Source: Liolophura sinensis
Lineage: Eukaryota; Mollusca; Polyplacophora; Chitonida; Chitonidae
DNA length: 64,000 bases
Direction of reading: 5' to 3'
NCBI RefSeq assembly: GCF_032854445.1
Contig: NC_088295.1
Coordinates: forward strand, 83,868,644-83,932,643
Part shown: positions 7,237 through 56,148 of the stretch, one piece after another
Numbering within the stretch: position 1 is the stretch's first letter
Layout: every line of letters starts with the position of its first letter
Translations under genes and position numbers: made by a program
The notes under the pieces: generated by a model
Database searches by the model: none
Told to the model about the DNA's origin: nothing
Seen by the model: only the letters and a program-made list of their open reading frames with translations

Positions 7237-7531
7237 CCAGTCACCGTTCACTGTCTCTGTTCAGCTTGATCGACCTGTGACGAGCCGGCGCTCAGCGCAG
7301 AGGAACAGCCAACAGCTGACTGTTGACAGGAACTTCGGACGAGCTTCTGTCACGGGATGAACGTGGCGTAGCACTGTTCACGAGCGGAGTTGTGCTTCAG
7401 AGTTTGATGACTATTTACCGCATTGCGTGCAAAGGTGTGATGAGACGGAGATTTGTACAGACAGCATCTTAAACGGCCCTTCGTCCCCGTGAAGAGACAT
7501 ACAGAGGTAAGACAGAGGTAACGCTAACATC

Positions 7532-10500
7532 ATGTCTCTAGGAATTCTCACCTCCACACTGCGGGCTCTGAAGAACCTGAGAGACCACCCGACCGTGACT
7601 TACATCGGGATAAATCTTGCAGGTTTGGTCAAATACAACCAGGATTTGTCCCACCTAGGCCAAAAGAAGTCCCGTTTCCAGCTGGTGAGAATCAGCGCGG
7701 CAGTCTGTGGCATCGAGCTGTGTTATGCGGCAGAGACAGCCTTCGTCAGCCCAATTCTCCTCAGCCTAGGTGTTCCTGTGTCTCTCATGACATTAATCTG
7801 GTGCTTGAGTCCACTTCTCGGATTTTTCTTGGTTCCAGTTTTGGGTTCAGTCAGTGACAGATGTCGTTCGAGCTTGGGTAGACGAAGACCGTTTATTCTG
7901 ATTTTGTCCGCTGGAATTATTGTGGGTTTGATACTCGTACCCAATGGTAAACGTTTGGGATCGTTTTTAGGAGATGAGCAAAATAACAATACCCATTCTA
8001 CGGTAGATCATAATAAACAAAATGTAACGTATGTTTACAACTGGGCTCTTGCCCATTCCAGCTACAGCTTATACCCTCAAAGCCAGAGTCAGGACACTGA
8101 TTCCAGTTCGAAACACTACAACAAATTGTCTTCACGGAACTTGGCTGGGATAGCTTTGACAATAATAGGTGTGGCAATGTTGGATTTTAACTGTGATGCC
8201 TGTCAGTCGCCGTGTCGGGCTTACCTTTTGGACATAAGCCTGCCGGAGGACCACTCCCCTGGACTGACCACCTTTACAGTCATGGCAGGACTCGGGGGCT
8301 GCCTGGGCTACATCATGGGTGGCATCGACTGGAACGCTGTGGGCGTGAGTCGCCGATTCGGAGGACATGTACAGGTTGTCTTTCTCGTAGTGCTCGTCGC
8401 TTATGTTATATGTGTTCTACTAACGGTCTCTAGTTTCAAGGAAATTCCCTTGGACGAGTTGGGATACGACCAAGAAAAGCGACAGAAGAAGAAGAAAAAA
8501 TTGGGAAGTTCGAAGTACCGGAAATTTACGAACGAGGATGATTCCGATGAAGAAGGGACGAGTTCCCCTGGGGTGGGGACAGAGAGGGTGGGTTCGCCCA
8601 GTGAGTCTGATAGGGGTCTAGATATGGACGGACAGAACGCTATCTCGTACGGGAGTCTAGATCTGCTAAATAAACCCGCTATCGGCAGCAGCGAGAAAGC
8701 TTTGACAGGCGGATTACACGCCAACCAGTCCCTTGCAAACAGCATGGGAAATGGTGTCAAAACTGACAGTGATTCGGTTGTCTGCGAACAACAGGCTCCT
8801 CTGGAAATATCCACGGATGTAACACTTAAAACATATCTGCTCTCCATTCTGCGGATGCCGAAATCGATATTTATACTGTGCTTAACGAATCTGTTTTGTT
8901 GGATGTCTTTAGTTTGTTACTCTCTGTACTTCACGGATTTCGTTGGACAGGCGGTGTTTGGGGGCGACCCCAAGGCGGATCGGGGCACGGCCAGTTATGA
9001 ACTTTACCATGCTGGGGTCAGAATGGGGTCGTTCGGCATGTCACTGTACTCGCTGTCCTGTGCCATCTACTCCTTGTGTATTGATTATCTGGTGAAGAGA
9101 TTCAGTAAGTAAATACTTATAGTTATTTATAGTTCATTTGCCGCAGTAGTTGTGATACTTACCGTAAATCATTTACCTGGTCATTAGGCTTGACATTTCG
9201 TGCACTGTTGTACAGACGCGCAAAATGTAAGCAGACGTACCTGACCTTCTGCATTTCTTAAGGAGCTATCGAGTTACTTCATTGGGTTCTTAATGTCGCC
9301 ATCAATCAAGATAGACAACCGGCATTTCATTTCACGTAATCTCGCTTAGGACCCTTCTCCAGAGCAAATTTCATTGCACATGTATGCCTTTGCGATGTGC
9401 ATTGTTCCATGTACAAGGTATTGTTACAGTAATTACGGTTACATGCAAAGTTGTTAATCCAACGGATGTTTGTACGCAGCTCACTTGAAATGATCCACAC
9501 GTTTCTTTCACGCTGTGTGCACCTTGCAGTGACGATTTACGGCTCCCTATGGCAGGCAGACATATACATGCGCGCTGAAACCGTGGTGTCGACATTGAGC
9601 GTGATGCCGTAATTTTGAATAATTCTAGACCAGTGACGTCTAAGAAATTGCATTAAACATCATTTTTTTTTACTTAATTCTGCTTGAATACCATACTGGT
9701 AGAGGATGTGTAAATTGTTATAATGTAAGCATTGACATGAACAGTTAGATAAAATCATAACTCAGGTAAATTGACAAGAGGCCAGATTTCACCGATTACG
9801 TTATCATTTGCCAACTATCACTCTGTCGTCGCTGTTCCGGTATTATTCTACATGTTGGTTTCTTTTTATATTGAAAGGGTTGAGGAACAGTATAACTTTA
9901 AAGTCCATAACAACAACGTGACTCTTATATTTAAGATATCAAGATCGATGCCGTCATTATGTACTACGCAGTCAGGCAAATGTACCACAGTTCTCACATC
10001 TCGCTCATTGAAATTTACTTTGGCTCCTTCGGCTATCTTCAAAGAAATATCTGGTTTAATACAAGTTAAAGCAAAGTTCATGAAGAGAACCAATGGTGCG
10101 AGGATCTAATGACATGGCCAAGTTGGTCTGTTGGAATTGCATTCCTGTCGTCCCAGAGAGCTACTCATCGTGAGCGCGGCAATAACAGACATGCGTTCAC
10201 TTGTCCAGCTACAGTTTACACAGCTATAGAAAGCTACATCAACCCCGGTACTGAACAACCTCTTATACTGACCAGACTGTTTGTTTAGGTTCGATGGCTA
10301 ATAACGTTCATAGGCGAAGATATTGGAAAGATGGCGGCTTGGGTTGGTTGGAGTGATTGTAACATTGTCTAAGAATAACCTGGTTCGATGGGCATGTGAC
10401 AGGATCGGCATGACTGTTATATAGAGCTGTCTCAGTACGCTTATACATGGCCTTGGATAGCGTGCCACCTCCCATCCCTTACCTGGCTAATTGCTCAGAC

Positions 10501-27625: not shown

Positions 27626-43009
<15,384 letters not shown>

Positions 43010-45588: not shown

Positions 45589-48500
45589 CTATGCCACTGA
45601 TGCTAGGTAGTCCTTCACTTCTGATGGTTGTAACCGTTTGAAGCCTTCATGATTACAGATCCCTATCTCAATGTTATCCTCTGTCATTTGGCCCTCAAAA
45701 CTCTCCTTCAGGGTTAGGATAGCTGTGTGAACGGCATCTTCCAGCTCCAGGGAATCGCTGTACCTGAGAAAGTACAGCGTTAGCATGATTAATATAAATG
45801 TTTTTTGTTCGTGTGGAGATTCCACTGAATTTGGTCCAACCATCTGTATTCAGAGAGCACTAGTGAATTACCTTCATGCAACTGTGAGCTTGGTTCTGAT
45901 ACAATTTTCAATGTCTAATTTCCAGCGGTGACATTTACTTAATATCCACATTCTGGGGAAAGTGAACAGGGAACTGTAAATGGGCAAGGATGAAAAACCA
46001 CTCTTCGATCAAAACTGACAGATTTCTTAATTTGTTTTGCTTTATATTGAGAATTGCTGCATAAGTCTGTTCCATAGATACAGGTATTTTATGAGCATAT
46101 GAGAGTATGTAAAGAGATGTCTACATTGATATACTTTACCTTTTTTCCAAAAAAGTTTTTCCATTGACAAAGTTCTTTCCTAGAGCAGTAGCCTTCCAGG
46201 CAAAATAGGCACCCTATATGAACAAATACAAAAACTTGTAGACGGTAGCACATTGGTTTAAAACACATTGCAGAGTACTGTATGCTCCGCAGAAATAATT
46301 CCACTTCCACTTCTAACTACAGGTCTCGCCACAATATGGCTGAAATATTGCTGATGTGGCATTAAACCATAATCATTCATTCATTCTAACTACAGGTATT
46401 GAACACAATCAGAAACCTATACATCCACAAATTCCCTTCCACATGCATAAGAAGTCACTTGGCGAAGATCTGCCAGCTATCTATGGACAGTAACAGGTAA
46501 ATCCAGTTTCCTACAACCACAATGGCCACCACTGTAAAAGTGAAATACTCTTGAACATGGCAGAAAAAACATCAATCAAATGAATCAATAAATAAAATTG
46601 GCATATGAATATCAAAGGTCTGGGCTTGATATTTCATTATTTGACCATTCAGATCTGACAATAGTTAACACTGTCCAACTATACTGGATTTCGCATGAGC
46701 TTAACCCTTGGCATGTTTCAGAAATTAACATACCGAAGGATCACACTGGTACAAGTATGGCTTCTCCTCATCGTCATCCCAGCCAGCTATCAACAGAGAC
46801 AAGCCAAATGGGCGAACTCCACTGAAAAGGCAAAACCACGCACCATTTTATACTCATGTGACAGCACCCAAAAACCAAACTCCACATTTTTAATGTAAAC
46901 AGCATAGCAACACTACGGATGAGCCACAAATACTATGAATGCATACAATAATGTACAAATATTTGCATGTCGTCATGTACAGAAGAACTTTTAACAATAC
47001 CTGACGAAGCATGTACAGCACCTTACCCAGATTGTGTGTATTCCTGCATGACATTGGCCAACCTCTGTACCAGCTGAGCTGTGGGAATTTGTTCCTGATA
47101 AGTTAAGAAGTATTGCTGTGCCAGCTTCCTTCCATTCCTCACCAGAACCCTAGAAAGAAAACAATCAACAAGAAATGTTCACGGCAGTCTTTTTTATTTA
47201 TTTATCAATAGATTGATAATTGTTAAATGACCATCTTTCTTCAAAAGAATCGTAACGAACACCAATCCATGTATATATTCTTTTATTCCTTTTACAGTAG
47301 AGTCTCTGTATACCGACTGTACTCGGGACCGAACAAAAATGTTGGTTTAGACAAGATGTCGGTGTATTAAACATGGGCATGTAGCCTACAAAAACAACAT
47401 GTGTATTGTACATACATATATACGTTTAATTAAACTTTAAAGCTTTCTCCTGGATTAATGGGCCTGACACAGGAAAGGATTTCGATCTGGCAAGGTTGTT
47501 GATTTTATCAATTTTACAAGCATTCTTAAATCGCCTTGTCTCACCACTGGAATTCTCGTATTCGTCCAAATAATACTGTTTTCTTTTTACGATGTAACTC
47601 ACAGTTGAACAGCCAACTGAAAACTTGTGAGCTAATTGAGTTTGTGTGGACATAGGGAATGTTTCGTAACCTTGGATAAGTTGAACTTTATCATTCAAGT
47701 TCATTTCCACACAGCAACGCTTCGCTGGTCTACTGGCCATGGCCGGATGCTGTCAGGACAATGGCAGGGGAAATTGTGACGGCAACTGTTGTTTGAGGCA
47801 TTTTTATTTAGTCACTGAGCTACTCAGTGTCAGACTCATCTTTCACTCATTTAGTGACTAAACTCTGATTTCCGAAGGAGGGATGGTACAGTATCAAGAC
47901 AGGAGATGATCACCTGTTGAAGTGGGAGAGTTCACATAAGCAAATTATCTCCCTTCCCCTCCCTTCAACCAGGTTGAAGCCAAACTTGAACTCTGTCGGA
48001 CATTGTGTGACACGCTGTGTCGGATTAGACAAGAGAGACTAACGCTCACTGGGAATATTTGTACTACAAACCACAGTCAGTGTTCAGAAAAGACAAGAGT
48101 CGGTTTACTGTCAAATGGAGCAGTAAACGGACCACGAAATGTTGTCGGTTTTGACATGTCAGTTAATAAAGGTGTCGGTATTGAGAGAGTCCACTGTAGT
48201 AATTTTAATGCAAACATTCATGTGTAGACTTCGTATACATAAAGACAGCATTCTGAGTGCAAAAAATACCAGAAATTATACTATGGTTAACCAACTTTAA
48301 TCAAAGTGGACAGTTAATTCAGTAACATACCTGTAATCTGGTCCCATTCCACTGTACACCATGCCTATGTTTTTGGTGATCATTTCTATCTTGTGTATGC
48401 TGTGTTCATCATACAGCACAGATTTCTGCTTTTTTTCTGTCGCTAGAACAACCCCATTTGTTGCTGAAGAAAAGAAACACATCCATTAAAGCTGTATCAG

Positions 48501-51500
48501 TTTTAACAAGAGTTCAGGTGAACACAACACATGCCCTGACAAAAGCATTTGTTTGAATTGTATAAAAGAACATCAGCAGCATTGTGGCGAGTATAACCCT
48601 GAGGTGGAATTTTCATCGCAGGTGGACAAAGGTGTTTAGCTCAAATCCCAATTTCATGCCGAAAACAGCTGAAGTTGTCATTTCTATTTATGTAGTATAT
48701 ATAAGGGAAATGGGTATTTGGTTACCATGACAACCTTGAAGATGGACAAATGTGACACATCGTCATCTATGCATCCACCCAAAATTAAAAGTCTATGTGG
48801 AAAACTGTTGCAGATATATCCTGGACACCAGGTTATATCTGTTTATATAGTATCAGAAGTCCATTATCCAGCAGTATGCAACTTCCCTATAGCTAGTCTC
48901 CACGGCACCTTACTCTTTTCTCTGATCTCTGACACATTATGTGACGTATCTGTGCAGCCATGTATTTTTTTCTTTGCATTGTGCAGCAAACGTTTGAGAA
49001 ATGGTTGATGAATGGTGGGAAAAACTGTTTCAATCGCTGTTGTGTTGAAATGACTTTAAAAAATTACTAAACCGAGAGTTTTATAAAAGGATAACAATGT
49101 CTTTGATAGTAACTTTTTTAGTGTTGCTTGGAATTATAAACATAGTCAATGGGTTCTTAACTGCATAGCAACAATGATTACTGAAATCCTAGTTTTCTAA
49201 ATACAGAGTTTCAGTTTCAACGTGTGGCCAGTTCTTGTAGGAGCCATTTGCATTAGCTTTCCCATGATTCAGTTCACAATTTCCACCCAAGAGGTTGGCA
49301 TGTTTCTCCACCGGGTGGCTCAAGCTTCTACAGACGACGTAATGTGTAATGTGCCGCGGAGACTATAGCTACATTGAAGTGCATACTTCTAGGTAATGAA
49401 CTTCTGACGGTACATAAAGGGAAAATGGCGATCTGGTAACCATGACAACAGCAGAAATGAACAAATGTGAGTTGCAACACATGGTCATCTGTGTATGTTT
49501 GTATTCACAAAAAATTAAAGCTCTATGCAGGAAACAGTTGGAGTTGTAGCCCAAACATGAAATCATATCTATCTGTATAATATATATAACGAAAATGGCT
49601 ATCTGGTTACCATGTCACTCGCCAAATGGAAAAGTGTGAGTCGAGATATATTGTCATCTGTGTATCCATGCATCCACCAAAAATTACAACTCTATGTGGA
49701 AAACTGTTGAAGTTACAGCTCAGACACCAAATCATAACTATCCATATTGTATATATAAAGAAAATGGCTATCTGGTTACCATGACAACTGCGGAAATGGA
49801 CAAATGTGAGTCACTACACATTGTCATCTGTGTATGTATGTATCCATCAAAAATTACAACTCTTTGTGGAAAACTGTTGGGAGTTATAGCCTGAACACGA
49901 AATCATATCTATTTAAATAGTATACAAAGGGAAATAGTAATCTGGTAACCATGACAACTGTGTAAATTGTAACAAATGTGAGTCATGACACATCATCATC
50001 TGTGTATATGTATCCACCAAAAATTAAAACTCTACAAAGAAAAATGTTGGAATTATAGCCAGGACACGAATACGGATGGACGGACAGATTGACAAAATTG
50101 CTATAACATAATACACTGACATAAAAAGTGATGTCACTGAATATCATTTCTACACAATCCATCTTACATGACACTGTATTCAAAACAAATGTACCAATAA
50201 GCAATCTGTAAAGTAACAATTATAATGTATTTTAAAACAAAAGTCTTGTTCATTTACGTAACATTTCATGAAGATAACCATATGCAGTTGTTCACCATTC
50301 AGATTATTCAGTGAGGTGAGAGATTTAATAGAAAGATATAGGGAAATGTCAATAATAATTAGAAATTATACTATCTTAGGCAAGAGAACAATCTACATAG
50401 CATACTCAATTTGTGAATGTTAAGACGACGTACTTTTAGAAGTCTGTCAAGCAGAGTTTTCAACATTATTTAGACAATGTTTTCACAGCCATGTATGCGC
50501 AAGTCAAAGGGAAAGTTCCCAGATATCAACATCTTGAATATCATTACATTAAAAACAATACAAAACCACTCCTTTGACGAAGTTAAACCCGGCAAGAGTA
50601 ACCTTTGGCTACTCTATCTATGGAGGCATGCGAAAATGAAGCAGTACTGAAACTGAAAGCAGATTTTTCTCACCTTTTATACCCACCGAGGGAGCTCCTG
50701 CAGCTACTGCTGCCAAAGCATACTCTATCTGCACCAGCTTCCCAGAAGGACTGCAAAATAAGAACAGAAACATAAATTAATGATATATAGATGCAAAACA
50801 TCAATCCGACAGGCATTAATGTTGTGTGAAGGCACATCTATTTTGATGTCGATATGGCTTATTTGGCCTAAAAAAAAGGAAAGAAAACAAGTATTAACTT
50901 ATCTGATAAGTGTTTAACGAAGCACTTAAAGAGCTACTACAATGTGATTTTTTTTTTTTTTTTTTTTTTGATTGGTGTTTTACGCCGTGCTCAAGAATAT
51001 TTCACAATGTGAAGATATCTGTGTCTTAAAAGCAAGGTTAAATGATAAGAACAGAAAAAGTCTGAACTTCTTTCCTAAATTATACAAAAATTGCAATTTA
51101 TTAAAACCATCTGTCATTAGTTTTGGAGGATGACACAGATACAAAAGTTTTCCGTTGTTTCCAATTTTGCCTGGTGTGACGTCATGCAAGATACCTGGCA
51201 TCACCCATCGATGATGTATCGCAAAAAAATGACGTCATACTTTCAAATGTGCATTCCAGCATAACTGCCTTACCCGACGTCATGTCTATCTGATTTATTG
51301 TCACATAAGGAATATCATCTCGCCACATCAGGAGAATTTTACAGAAACTGACGAAGATTTTGTTTTTTGAAACCTCTTCACTTTTGGGGGTTAAATACTG
51401 TTAGCTCCGTTCCCTATGGTATCCTTTGTATCATTTCACTATTTCCACCTAGCTCCAGTTAGGACTGCAGTTACACCTTAAAGAGGACAACTTTTCTCAC

Positions 51501-52331
51501 TTAAAGCTGCATTTTACCCAGTCATATAAACATTATAAACATTAATCACAGGGTAGTTCAAACACCTGACGCCAAGGGCAATATATTTCATGCTGTGATT
51601 GTTGTTGTTGGCGTCAGAATCCACTCACGCCAAAAAGTGTCAGTTGGCTGCCACTCCTGAAAGCGTCAGTGCGTAGTCTGATTCAACCAATGAAATCAAC
51701 ATGGTTGGCCAGTATTAAATGTTGATTTTCATCGCCTGATGCAGACTACTCACCGACACATTCAAGGGTGATAGCCAACTGCACCTGCTACTTTTCGATT
51801 CTGGCACCAATGACAACCCCAACGCGATGACGTTCAAGGAGATTTTAAGCTCAGGTTGCTGTCATATGGTAAAGTGAGGTCATTTCATTGAGGAACCAGC
51901 TTTTCAGAGTAAACATCAGGGCAGGCGCTCGTCGAGTCATTGACTAACAAAAGCATCAACCTAGTCTTTACCACTGCCCATTGTACATAGTTCACCAGAT
52001 TCTGTTTTTCTGCTTAGCATGTTTCATATTTCGATTTTTTTGGTCCCAAAGACTGACTAGTGAGCAATAGACAAGTACATGTCTACTCCAGAGATGCTTT
52101 GTCATTAGGTATCGGAAACCGGGGTCTTGGTAATTCAGAAGCAACATCAATGTCACGTTCCTTCATTTCGCTGATTCCAATTCAGTGCTTATGTTTGGGT
52201 TAACTAAACACAGAACACACTTAAGGCTGTTCATCTGCAATAGGAACAATAATTATTTTCATTAAAACAAGACTAATAAATAAAATATATCACCTGAATG
52301 TTGTCAGCGAAAAACTGTAGCGTTCCGACAT
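45589..52331 (-). CDS. PSMA2: 20S proteasome subunit alpha type-2, complete
   Basis: Seven minus-strand exons join in phase to 235 residues (human 234): 52294-52331, 50674-50750, 48331-48463, 47027-47149, 46734-46821, 46140-46213, 45589-45763 (stop TAG). PSMA2 is one of seven alpha subunits forming the outer rings of the 20S core; alpha subunits lack the catalytic threonine and gate substrate entry. The N terminus [20 protein letters not shown] is the alpha-subunit signature. Other near-identical stretches are [33 protein letters not shown] and [17 protein letters not shown]. The only length changes are one residue fewer at the N terminus and about two more in the [13 protein letters not shown] segment. 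Donors and acceptors are canonical. It is divergent from MRPL32 and convergent with AGPS. Confidence 0.97.
46325..46383 (+). mobile_element. SINE-C 3' end with 14-bp target duplication
   Basis: A 59-base insert (CACAATATGGCTGAAATATT, GCTGATGTGGCATTAAACCA, then an ATTC-type tail), flanked by identical TTCTAACTACAGGT at 46311-46324 and 46384-46397. The tail differs from SINE-A and resembles a family seen in gastropods and other molluscs. Extreme 5' truncation. Confidence 0.85.
46462..46596 (+). repeat. SINE-A, 5'-truncated, diverged, PSMA2 intron
   Basis: AAGATCTGCCAGCTA, TTTCCTACAACCACAATGGC, GTGAAATACTCTTGAACATG, ATCAATCAAATGAATCAATA. Confidence 0.65.
47295..48196 (-). mobile_element. Tigger/pogo-like DNA transposon, internally deleted
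   Basis: A 902-bp element in a PSMA2 intron with CAGT...ACTG ends. The inverted termini CAGTAGAGTCTCTGTATACC and CAGTGGACTCTCTCAATACC (the latter on the minus strand) agree at most positions over about 23 bases, and a TA dinucleotide flanks each end (47293-47294, 48197-48198) as expected for Tc1/mariner-type insertion. It encodes only the start of a transposase. Confidence 0.85.
47426..47740 (-). pseudogene. Truncated Tigger-like transposase, DNA-binding part only
   Basis: A 104-codon minus-strand frame. Residues about 12-60 fit the N-terminal helix-turn-helix of CENP-B/Tigger proteins ([28 protein letters not shown]). The following stretch ends in [16 protein letters not shown], matching the VSGPLLQEKA motif of the second DNA-binding half. 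The frame stops there, and the DDE catalytic domain of about 350 residues is absent, so it cannot transpose itself. Whether it is expressed as a DNA-binding fragment is unknown. Confidence 0.8.
48699..48829 (+). repeat. 170-bp repeat, isolated copy
   Basis: GGTTACCATGACAACC, GATGGACAAATGTGA, TGGAAAACTGTTG and CCAAAATTAAAA-like blocks match the tandem array 580 bases downstream. Confidence 0.7.
49412..50070 (+). repeat. 170-bp tandem array, four copies, PSMA2 intron
   Basis: ATCTGGTTACCATGACAAC-type blocks start at about 49431, 49602, 49769 and 49941. Each is followed by AAATGTGAGTC, TCATCTGTGTAT and AAAATTACAACTCTATGTGG. Copies are perhaps 75-85% alike. Confidence 0.8.
50948..51003 (-). mobile_element. 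Very short SINE-A stub with poly(A) tail
   Basis: About 22 T residues, then GATTGGTGTTTTACGCCGTG and CTCAAGAATATTTC, flanked by identical ACAATGTGA at 50939-50947 and 51004-51012. Only about 35 bases of SINE body were copied. The tail is a homopolymer instead of the usual AAAT repeats. Confidence 0.8.
51610..51806. repeat. Fold-back inverted repeat in PSMA2 intron 1
   Basis: Arms 51610-51702 and 51717-51806 are roughly 70-75% complementary with a loop of about 14 bases. Shared blocks include CAGTTGGCT (reversed as AGCCAACTG), GTAGTCTG (CAGACTAC), AAATCAACAT (ATGTTGATTT) and CAGAATC (GATTCTG). Weaker pairing continues outward to about 51570 and 51850. Confidence 0.75.
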
Positions 52332-52430
52332 CTTGTTTCACCATGTAACTTATAACTGTGGATTTCATTGGCTGGTGAATTTCTATCGACCAATGACAGC
52401 AGCTAAAACAGAACGGCGAGTTGAGAGAAG
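52332..52430. promoter_or_regulatory. Bidirectional promoter of PSMA2 and MRPL32
   Basis: Only 99 bases separate the two divergent start codons. They hold a CCAAT box on the minus strand (ATTGG, 52367-52371) and one on the plus strand (CCAAT, 52390-52394), about 20 bases apart. There is no TATA box. Paired CCAAT motifs (NF-Y sites) are common in bidirectional housekeeping promoters. The 5' UTRs must be short or overlapping. Confidence 0.75.
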
Positions 52431-55400
52431 ATGTCGGCATCCACGCGTTTTCTTGAAGCGCTGCTAAGACTAGAAACATCCTTTTTTCGTTGGATAGGTG
52501 TAAATGGTGAGACACTTTTTAAAACTTAAACCGTGAATTCTGATGCAAATTATGTCTCATAAACTGACATGGTAGATAGCCTATTTCTTATATGCGAACA
52601 GCACGTGGTCTTCATCAACTGCAACTCCACTCTAGTGTCTTGACAACTACCACTAGGCCTGCTTACCGGAAGAGTTGCATCGATGCTTTAATTTAGCTGA
52701 GGCAAAGCAGCTTGATTTTATATGAAAGGCCTTTCATTTACCCACGGATCCTCGATTCAACAGGCCAAGTCATAGTACAACATGTGTAAGGTATATAAGG
52801 TCAGAAACAACGTTTCAGCGATTTTAGAAATAAAGCATTTTCCGTTAGTTTGTTTTACGCTCATCTGCACGTCTTGTCCAGCGTCCACAGTGTAGGCAGA
52901 ATCCATCAAAACTGTTTTTTCTGACTTTGTCCTTCTGTACGCCTATATATACACTACACATAGCCCTATGGGCGTTTGACTGAAACTGTGGGATCGATAC
53001 GAGGGCCAGTTATTTAACGAAGGAATAGAGTGCAAGACGACAAAAAATGAGGGGGATGTAGGAGCGATCGCAAATTAATTTGAGGTTGTTTCAGTATATT
53101 TATATCTGACATTCACAAGTGCTTCAAAGAGGTAAAGATCAGAATGGATGATGGAAGATGTTTTAGTTTAGTTTGCAGCTTTTTCAGTTTAGCTTGATGG
53201 TTTTTTTATTTTTGCTGCTTGTTTGGTCATATTGTATGTATCTGTAATACTGATCCTGAAGCTGACAAACTGGCTACTATACAATTTCAATACGCAGTTT
53301 TCGAGTTACTCCATTACGACAACAGAATGACGTCTCGATGCAAAAAGACGTCGCCACTTCACAGCACAGTAGGGCTACTTGCCTATCTTTTAACATGGCA
53401 GTGATCGTGTTTAGATCAAAGTATCCGCAGAAAATCATTTCTTGTGTAATATTGGGGGAACGCTAAGTCACCCCTGAACACAGTTCAAAAGATCAGTGTA
53501 ATCCTTTCAATTACTTCTCTATATTCTGTGTACCACCCCATGTTAAAATTACCAGATTGGCCCTACCGAGCCGTGAAGTGACGACGTCATATCATAAAGG
53601 GACGTCACTCTGTCGTCTTAATGTCATATCTTGAAATGTGTATTCAAGGCAGCATCTACTGCATTTCTGTTGAAATTCCGTTATAGCCATATTGCTTGTA
53701 GATGCAAGATGCAACAAAAATAGACCCTGTACAGATAGCTTTGATATACATGTACCACTACAATATTTTCAGCTTCATGCAAGTTCTGACCTCTTCAGTG
53801 GTTAGAGGGCCCGCCTCAAAGTCGGGAGACCCGGGATCAAAACTGGGTCGGGTCATTCCAGAGGCTTAAAAAAAAATGGTACTTTTTGCTGCCTCGCTTG
53901 GCATTTACCGACGAAAGGTTAGAGCAAGGAAGTAGAACTGGTTGGCCCAGCCTTAGTGTAATGTATACATGACACTCCAGTGGCGGCAACAAGGAGACAC
54001 AGTATATCTGCACACCCCAAGCACACATATATACATATACTTACAAGTTTTGTACTGTAAGACCATGTTTTTATACAGGATTACTTCACAAACCGATATT
54101 AAACTTCAGTACTTGTAGTGGTAAGAAGAAGATTTCTTGGGACATGGACATATATGATGCCAAGGGAGCCTTTTTACTAGAAACATATTGTGTTTAGAAC
54201 CCTTGTCATATGAGTTTGTTAATGGGGATGAAGACAGAAGTGGGGCCTCCGTGGCTCAGCTGAGCAGCATAATGACCCAGAAGCCTCTCACCAATGCAGT
54301 CGCTGCGAGTTCAAGTCCAGCTCATGCTGTCTTCCTCTCTGGCTGTAAGTGGAAAGGTCTGCCAGCAACCTGTGAATGGTTGTGGGTTTCCCCAGGCTCT
54401 GCCCGGTTTCCTCCCTCCATAATGGTGGCCATCGTCATATAAGTGAAATATTCTTGAGTACGGCATAAAACACCAATCAAATAAATAAATAATTGAAGAC
54501 AGAAGCTTTTTGTGTCTGTTCCACAGGTCATTCACCAGCATTAGTTTGTAACACAATCCAGACTCCTGAAGTGACCAGACATCACAACCATGACAGGCAA
54601 GGGTCATCTGTCATAGAGAGTATATTTGACAGCCGCCTCTGGGCAGTGCCCAAATTCAGACGGTCATTAGAAAGACGTATGACCAGAAGGATGGGAGGAG
54701 AGAAGCATTTTGAGACCTATGGTCAGCCAAAGAACAACATTGTAGCCTGTTTGGAATGTGGCCATTGGCATGAGAAGCACACAATATGTGGTAAGCTGAT
54801 TGAACAGTATGATGACTTTGAATGCAAGGTAAAGCATTGCCTCACCCCAGCTGTTAAGCCCTTGACCAATTCTATCAGATCCCATGTTTAAATCCAGTGT
54901 ATGCAGAGTGGATGTGTCAACTGAGGCCTTGTGAGACAATGCTGGGACTCACTAGACCCAAATCAGTAACATCTTGATTCATGTTGAGGCCCTGTGGGGT
55001 TAAACACAGTGCTCTATGTGGGGTTAAACACAGTGCTCTATGTGAGGTTAAACACAGTGCTCTATGTGGGGTTAAACACAGTGCTCTATGTGGGGTTAAA
55101 CACAGTGCTCTATGTGGGGTTAAACATAGTGCTCTATGTGGGGTTAAACACAGTGCTCTATGTGGGGTTAAACACAGTGCTCTATGTGGGGTTAAACACA
55201 GTGCTCTATGTGGGGTTAAACACAGTGCTCTATGTGGGGTTAAACACAGTGCTCTATGTGGGGTTAAACACAGTGCTCTATGTGGGGTTAAACACAGTGC
55301 TCTATGTGGGGTTAAACACAGTGCTCTATGTGGGGTTAAACACAGTGCTCTATCGGGAGCTTATACAAGATGAACAAAATAAACTGAAGTTGCCACCTGG

Positions 55401-56148
55401 ATTTACTTGATCACATTAGTGCCAAAGATATCATTTTGGTCCTTTGCAAAGGCCATTGTCTTTACAGAGGAACAATCCAATTGTTTCTAAAACCGTGAAG
55501 GGTGCATTCTAGTACATAAATTAGTGTTAACTGTATTAAATGTAAGAATTTTCCTTGAGTAATTTTCATTTCCAACGTGAAAATACAGCTCCAAAGTATG
55601 GAATTTGCACCTTGTTCCATTGTCTGACACATGATTTTAACCTATAGAGACAACTTGAGATAAGTCTGCATGACAGTCACATTGTGAGATCAGTTGTTCT
55701 CTAGGTTTAATTTTACCCATTTTGATTCTGCAATTTGTGAAAAAGAGATTTGTCATCAGGCTTTAAGGTAATTCTGTGTTATTTGTTCAGAAACATGTTT
55801 TTGGTAAAAATGTTCCTCTTTGGTAACATCAATATTTGTGAGGGCTTTAGTGATGATGAATAACAAATAAAACACACAAATCAGAGCTTACTGTTATGAT
55901 GTCTGACTGATCCTCTTATCTCCACAGGACATTGTTATGCCAAAGTCAGAGAGGAAACCAAACATATGCAAGAGGCAATGGGAGAGGAAGCAAATTTCTA
56001 TGCCCCACAAAAAGAAGTTGCATTTCTCTATGAAGGAGAGAAAGATGAAAACAGTCAGGAAAAATTTGTTGTGCATTTGAAAAAGAGAAGACCAGAATGG
56101 TTCTCCAAATCACTGACTTCAAAACAACCTTCATCTGACCCCTCATGA
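52431..56148 (+). CDS. MRPL32: Mitochondrial ribosomal protein bL32m, complete
   Basis: Exons 52431-52497 (or to 52506), 54527-54790 and 55928-56148 join in phase to 183 or 186 residues (human 188). Two donors, ATAG|GTGTAA and AATG|GTGAGA, keep the same phase; the second fits the consensus better. It is a structural protein of the mitochondrial large ribosomal subunit. In yeast and mammals the precursor is matured by the m-AAA protease. Visible features: a basic, hydroxylated N terminus (MSASTRFLEALLRLE) suited to a mitochondrial presequence; the conserved SIFDSRLWAVPKFRRSLE block; a zinc ribbon with C97, C100, C110 and C113 (CLECG and CGHC); and a C-terminal KKRRPEWF matching the family's RPSWF ending. 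The exon 2 donor TGTG|GTAAGC is chosen because it restores CGHCYAKV. Intron 1 holds two SINEs and intron 2 a 24-bp array. Confidence 0.93.
53788..54012 (+). mobile_element. SINE-B, tRNA-headed, MRPL32 intron 1
   Basis: The head CCTCTTCAGTGGTTAGAGGG (A-box-like) and GGGATCAAAACTGGGTCGGG (B-box-like) are followed by CTGCCTCGCTTGGCATTTAC, GACGAAAGGTTAGAGCAAGG, GAACTGGTTGGCCCAG and CTCCAGTGGCGGCAAC. I recall this body from bivalve repeat sequences. It is distinct from SINE-A and has no clear tail. Confidence 0.7.
54241..54493 (+). mobile_element. SINE-A, full length, with 12-bp target duplication
   Basis: The best full copy. Head TGGGGCCTCCGTGGCTCAGC (A box), GAGTTCAAGTCCAGCTCATG (B box, about 54308), body, TTCTTGAGTACGGCATAAAA, CAATCAAATAAATAAATA. 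It is flanked by identical TGAAGACAGAAG at 54229-54240 and 54494-54505, the right copy lying 21 bases before MRPL32 exon 2. Confidence 0.95.
54994..55353 (+). repeat. 24-bp minisatellite, 15 copies, MRPL32 intron 2
   Basis: Exactly 360 bases of GTGGGGTTAAACACAGTGCT plus CTAT, with only two or three substitutions in the whole array. Open frames of 130 and 138 codons (KHSALCGV and LNTVLYVG periods) are repeat artefacts within the intron. Confidence 0.95.

Follow-up and report, generated by a model that had tools for sequence, protein, structure and literature searches.

A predicted bidirectional promoter of 99 bp between PSMA2 and MRPL32 in the polyplacophoran mollusc Liolophura sinensis

About 11% of human genes and 32% of fly genes are bidirectional (PMC3403606). 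Human bidirectional promoters show an enrichment of NF-Y and CCAAT motifs, and the Mrps12/Sarsm promoter is an example (PMC3121118, PMC3091781). In this mouse pair, Sarsm (Sars2)–Mrps12, a mitochondrial ribosomal protein gene has a shared promoter regulated by CCAAT boxes and NF-Y, the box array being named in the title of a work cited there. PRR11–SKA2, another head-to-head pair under NF-Y, consists of cell-cycle-related genes and was described in lung cancer cells (PMC5372550). Another paper characterizes most bidirectional regions as GC-rich and without CCAAT. Here we describe the divergent genes for proteasome subunit alpha-2 (PSMA2) and mitochondrial ribosomal protein bL32m (MRPL32), and the short interval between them, in 64,000 nucleotides of the Liolophura sinensis genome (NC_088295.1, positions 83,868,644 to 83,932,643; hereafter the "window", in whose numbering all coordinates are given). 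From the sequence, we consider it probable that the interval is a compact bidirectional promoter common to these two housekeeping genes, and that the pair was inherited from an ancestor of this animal and the vertebrates.

The start codons of PSMA2 (52329–52331, minus strand) and MRPL32 (52431–52433, plus strand) are separated by the 99 bases of 52332–52430. Our reading of the open reading frames and splice sites bears out the initial annotation, which had placed the two starts 99 bases apart on opposite strands, and no break was seen in either reading frame. PSMA2, defined by its open reading frames and splice sites, extends over 45589–52331 on the minus strand. Its exon 1 (52331–52294), ATGTCGGAACGCTACAGTTTTTCGCTGACAACATTCAG, encodes the beginning of proteasome alpha-2 and is followed by the donor GTGATA. 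Exons 1–4 (52294–52331, 50674–50750, 48331–48463, and 47027–47149), joined for the searches, match human proteasome alpha-2 with an E-value of 3e-64 in a PDB search and exceed the Pfam cut-off for both PF00227 and PF10584, while exons 5–7 (about 46734–46820, about 46139–46213, and 45589–45763) were delimited by eye from the open frames.

MRPL32 (52431–56148, plus strand) has exons at 52431–52506, 54527–54790, and 55928–56148, and its coding sequence opens with ATGTCGGCATCC at 52431. It matches mitoribosomal bL32m with an E-value of 1.1e-27, the alignment to one chain beginning at residue 14, within exon 1. It also exceeds the Pfam cut-off for PF01783 and possesses the CxxC...CxxC cysteines of what we take to be a zinc ribbon. 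The end of exon 1 had been placed at 52497, which fits the possible donor TAG/GTGTAA, but a second possible donor, ATG/GTGAGA, ends the exon at 52506. Both preserve the frame and the sequence alone does not choose between them; 52506 was adopted for the analysis. The last MRPL32 intron contains a 24-bp tandem repeat (54993–55353; 15 copies, 98% match), and the near identity of its copies suggests a recent expansion.

The predicted promoter interval has a GC content of 41% and contains two CCAAT boxes, as the initial annotation had reported; there is one on each strand. The box on the PSMA2 strand (52367–52371, read as ATTGG on the plus strand; context AGCCAATGA) lies 40 bases before the PSMA2 ATG, and that on the MRPL32 strand (52390–52394; context GACCAATGA) lies 41 bases before the MRPL32 ATG. 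The two boxes point outwards with 18 bases between them, so that each gene also has the opposite box, at −63 for PSMA2 and −64 for MRPL32. The pair is centred at 52380.5, no more than 0.5 bp from the point midway between the two starts (52381). RRCCAATSR is the NF-Y-type CCAAT consensus, and sites of this type occur twice in the interval, once on each strand, and 12 times in the 64-kb window. At least two CCAAT motifs are found in 2.6% of 99-mers from a local first-order Markov model; among all the window's own 99-mers, the share is 1.5%. A divergent CCAAT pair at 10–30 bp is found in 0.24% of the local Markov 99-mers, this arrangement occurring twice in the 64 kb, and two RRCCAATSR-type sites are found in 0.025% of 99-mers. 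By these tests, which were chosen after the boxes had been seen, the CCAAT pair exceeds local chance.

The interval was also said to lack a TATA box, and indeed there is no TATAAA in 52332–52430. A palindromic TTATAA (52350–52355) is far from the MRPL32 start, some 76–81 bases before its ATG. On the minus strand, the distance from the TATAAG within it to the PSMA2 ATG is just 23 bases, which would put the start site inside the coding sequence; the motif is therefore badly placed as a PSMA2 TATA box.

The start codons themselves resemble each other. That of PSMA2 lies in the context AACAAGATGTCGG and that of MRPL32 in the context GAGAAGATGTCGG, sharing the 10-mer AAGATGTCGG, and each is preceded by an in-frame TGA at −9. 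Between −38 and −2 of either ATG, no acceptor-like site was found, the pyrimidine fraction in the 20 bases before each AG being 0.25–0.55. In contrast, a clear acceptor, TTCTTATTCTGTCTGTAG, stands directly 5′ of the ATG of PSMA5 in this genome. The TGA at −9 and the absence of an acceptor-like site together mean that no intron is apparent in either 5′ untranslated region (UTR), so that the 99 bp would be the real coding-to-coding gap, and there is no apparent sign that either gene uses a separate upstream promoter by way of a 5′ UTR intron. Each CCAAT box runs into an ATG (CCAATGA). Neither of these ATGs shares the frame of the genes, and the frames they open continue beyond the true starts; a further out-of-frame ATG lies at −13 of PSMA2. 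Transcripts from upstream of the boxes would consequently bear overlapping upstream open reading frames, and the start sites are thus predicted between each box and its gene. The predicted 5′ UTR would not exceed about 12 bases in PSMA2 and about 35 in MRPL32. Regarding the proposal that one short promoter is shared, its anatomy has held up (99 bp, a CCAAT box for each strand, and no sign of a 5′ UTR intron), while the role of the interval in driving both genes is a prediction.

The host assembly (609 Mb, 632 contigs) was searched for further copies. The promoter segment has a single match, and the MRPL32 search yielded three exon matches, all inside the window. The 21 PF00227 matches in the assembly correspond to 13 loci, among which alpha-2 is found only at the PSMA2 locus of the window. 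The profile search with PF01783 gave no match, missing the known MRPL32 exon as well, and that with PF10584 gave four matches, with PSMA2 not among them; family searches of the assembly thus overlook split domains, and it is within this limit that no second copy of PSMA2 or MRPL32 was found.

How does the locus compare with the described systems? Bidirectional pairs are those with divergent starts within 1 kb, and at the start-codon level the two ATGs lie 99 bp apart. Judged by its features, the interval fits the known class of bidirectional promoters as a GC-poor, CCAAT-bearing member. The human locus differs in its reported CpG island (PMC7201762). The mouse Sarsm–Mrps12 pair likewise includes a mitoribosomal gene, but its partner is another mitochondrial translation gene, unlike PSMA2; moreover, NF-Y dependence is reported there (PMC3121118, PMC3091781), whereas we infer a role of NF-Y at PSMA2–MRPL32. 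PRR11–SKA2 is likewise divergent, but its genes and cellular setting are unlike those of PSMA2–MRPL32.

The human PSMA2 and MRPL32 genes are, we presume, oriented head-to-head. The same two genes appear to be adjacent in vertebrates (PMC8709867, PMC7201762). In birds, the order STK17A, HECW1, MRPL32, PSMA2, C7orf25 on one side of COA1 is conserved, and the rodent section of the same paper gives PSMA2, MRPL32, and HECW1 as one flank in the gene orders O1 to O5 (PMC8709867). In human, the probe cg18001059, in a CpG island on chromosome 7, is assigned to both PSMA2 and MRPL32 (PMC7201762). In a simple neighbour model with 20–30 thousand genes, a specified gene becomes the divergent neighbour by chance with a probability of about 2e-5, to be multiplied by a few, as any of several gene pairs in a window could have drawn attention. 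With recurrence so improbable, no other reading is nearly as simple as shared ancestry, and the PSMA2–MRPL32 linkage is probably of common ancestry and the pair very old. The initial annotation had the pair divergent since before the split of molluscs and vertebrates: the vertebrate adjacency in print and the improbable recurrence support an ancestral linkage indirectly, and a date before that split would be tentative. The available parts of the literature contained no discussion of the PSMA2–MRPL32 promoter, and the pair may stand in supplementary tables (e.g., PMC2871058 Table S5 and PMC12672016 Table S3).

How would such a promoter work, and why would the pair persist? NF-Y would bind one or both CCAAT boxes, and its binding would open a single nucleosome-free region, on the flanks of which two pre-initiation complexes would assemble and fire outwards. 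Since neither gene is in frame with the ATGs overlapping the boxes, productive start sites would be expected in the stretch from each box to its start codon. A rearrangement separating the two genes would break at least one promoter, and this inseparability would be enough to explain the persistence of the pair. Any coordination of proteasome and mitoribosome output may follow from the pairing and does not have to be its cause. The proposed mechanism, NF-Y-type and CCAAT-based with a shared open region, is an ordinary one.

Several observations weigh against an inherited pair with a common promoter of this kind. The mirror symmetry is confined to the boxes: an overall dyad symmetry of the 99 bp was rejected (34 matches versus a shuffle mean of 25.3, P 0.11), and palindrome matching at a one-base offset gives 38 matches, a count for which no significance was computed. 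The mouse Sarsm–Mrps12 promoter is described as asymmetric (PMC3091781). C7orf25 (DUF1308), the next neighbour of the pair in vertebrates, is unlinked here, on another contig (C11), and LANCL-like genes are found on the contig of the window, about 52 Mb away, and on C11. According to PMC3403606, the bidirectional linkages of invertebrates and vertebrates have been broken up and reshuffled relative to one another, and short divergent pairs are reported not to be enriched in fishes and non-vertebrate animals (PMC2871058). A later paper, for its part, counts 66 human pairs as conserved in fly and 50 as conserved in worm (PMC12672016). With C7orf25 and the LANCL-like genes so placed, a larger conserved block around the pair finds no support; among the flanking genes, C7orf25 alone gave a clear answer, and conservation of the flanks is not required of a pair. 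The HECW_N and Coa1 models matched nothing in this or any control genome and are hence uninformative. A bolder version, in which the 99-bp promoter with its mirror-symmetric CCAAT pair would have kept the two genes joined since the bilaterian ancestor as a minimal two-way switch, fixing the ratio of protein destruction to mitochondrial protein synthesis, strikes us as distinctly unlikely.

The other proteasome genes of this genome provide a comparison for the CCAAT pair. Thirteen subunit loci were located in the assembly (PSMA1–7, PSMB1–5, and PSMB7), PSMB6 not being found among them, and the upstream DNA of the 12 outside the window was examined. The start exon was recognised in seven of the 13, PSMA2 included; at the others, the start is obscured by 5′ UTR introns or by first exons that are not conserved. 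A CCAAT motif lies within 150 bp of the ATG in three of these seven genes (PSMA2, PSMA7, and PSMB2), and a divergent CCAAT pair is present in two, PSMA2 and PSMA7. The PSMA7 promoter (contig C5) carries ATTGG-N18-CCAAT at −94/−71, with the same 18-base spacing as PSMA2–MRPL32. Genome-wide, this N18 arrangement occurs at 784 places, compared with a mean of 588 per spacing over N8–N38 and with 429 and 398 for the controls. The 50 N18 places listed form 39 sequence groups, one of them a family of eight. Repeats can account for much of the excess, and a small true excess is possible, as the mean of 588 still includes repeats. With three of seven genes and a spacing that is not convincingly enriched, a proteasome-wide CCAAT code was rejected as a general feature. 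Upstream of PSMA7, PSMB2, PSMB1, PSMB7, and PSMA3 (two), six hand-picked antisense open reading frames were scanned, a sample that gives no base rate, and one of the six passed a Pfam cut-off. The match is to the Tmemb_18A family (PF09771, E 1.4e-7) and marks an antisense exon, presumably of CNEP1R1, about 1.1 kb upstream of PSMA7. The start exon of this candidate divergent neighbour was not found upstream of PSMA7. Divergent pairing and CCAAT pairs may accordingly not be unique to PSMA2–MRPL32 in this genome.

These comparisons bear on three other explanations. An ancient linkage could have been kept by selection for regulating proteasome and mitoribosome together by a single NF-Y switch, as the nearly equal CCAAT geometry seen from each gene and the more frequent functional relatedness of conserved divergent pairs (PMC2871058) would lead one to expect; yet CCAAT is no proteasome-wide mark here, given the three and two of seven genes above, and co-regulation is argued not to drive pair preservation (PMC3403606), and we hold this reading to be unlikely. 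Another possibility is that vertebrates and this lineage each arrived at the divergent arrangement of the two genes on their own, the open promoters of housekeeping genes tending to pair. PSMA7 with its own candidate divergent neighbour speaks for such pairing, the partner of human PSMA7 being, as we assume, a different one. The proteasome pathway is also enriched among bidirectional genes in four of eight species, with re-pairing widespread (PMC3403606), and C7orf25 is unlinked in this genome. What makes independent pairing very unlikely is that the same partner would have to turn up again in the same orientation, for which the random-neighbour model gives a chance near 2e-5.

The third possibility is that a YY1/TISU promoter-translation element at each start codon, rather than the CCAAT pair, organises the locus, and the shared AAGATGTCGG does resemble TISU. 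The TISU consensus is SAASATGGCGGC, from which both genes depart in having T after the ATG where the consensus has G. TISU is described at the start codons of mRNAs with very short 5′ UTRs, binds YY1, and is required for transcription from the PSMD8 promoter (PMC2518114, in whose available text the consensus string itself is absent). In the L. sinensis genome, SAASATGNCGGC occurs at 1155 places versus 323 for the reversed control, a 3.6-fold excess. Among the first 100 of the 1155 places listed, all on the contig of the window, the variable position is G in 60, A in 16, C in 12, and T in 12. As the T form is scarce among these places, the PSMA2 and MRPL32 starts were not counted as TISU. The element was accordingly rejected as the main explanation and, as the organiser of this locus, is highly improbable. 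With ATGG at 60 of those 100 places, YY1/TISU-type sites may nevertheless be a real class in this genome.

Elsewhere in the window, a 57-bp tandem array of about 37 copies (31735–33809) is open in several frames on both strands and is likely a repeat artefact rather than a gene. An open frame of 533 codons (7511–9112) matches the major facilitator family (PF07690, E 2.1e-13). Copies of a dispersed repeat, for which a rough translation can be read, are present at several places, including 54311–54440 and 39486–39827, and also near PSMA6.

The preferred explanation remains a compact bidirectional promoter in a pair inherited from the ancestor shared with vertebrates. If the pair is ancestral, it would provide a bidirectional promoter old enough that it can be compared between phyla in only 99 bp, and might show which features, such as the CCAAT pair, its spacing, and the short 5′ UTRs, outlast the turnover of the sequence. 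The pair would then also stand as an exception to the shuffling of bidirectional linkages that PMC3403606 describes between invertebrates and vertebrates.

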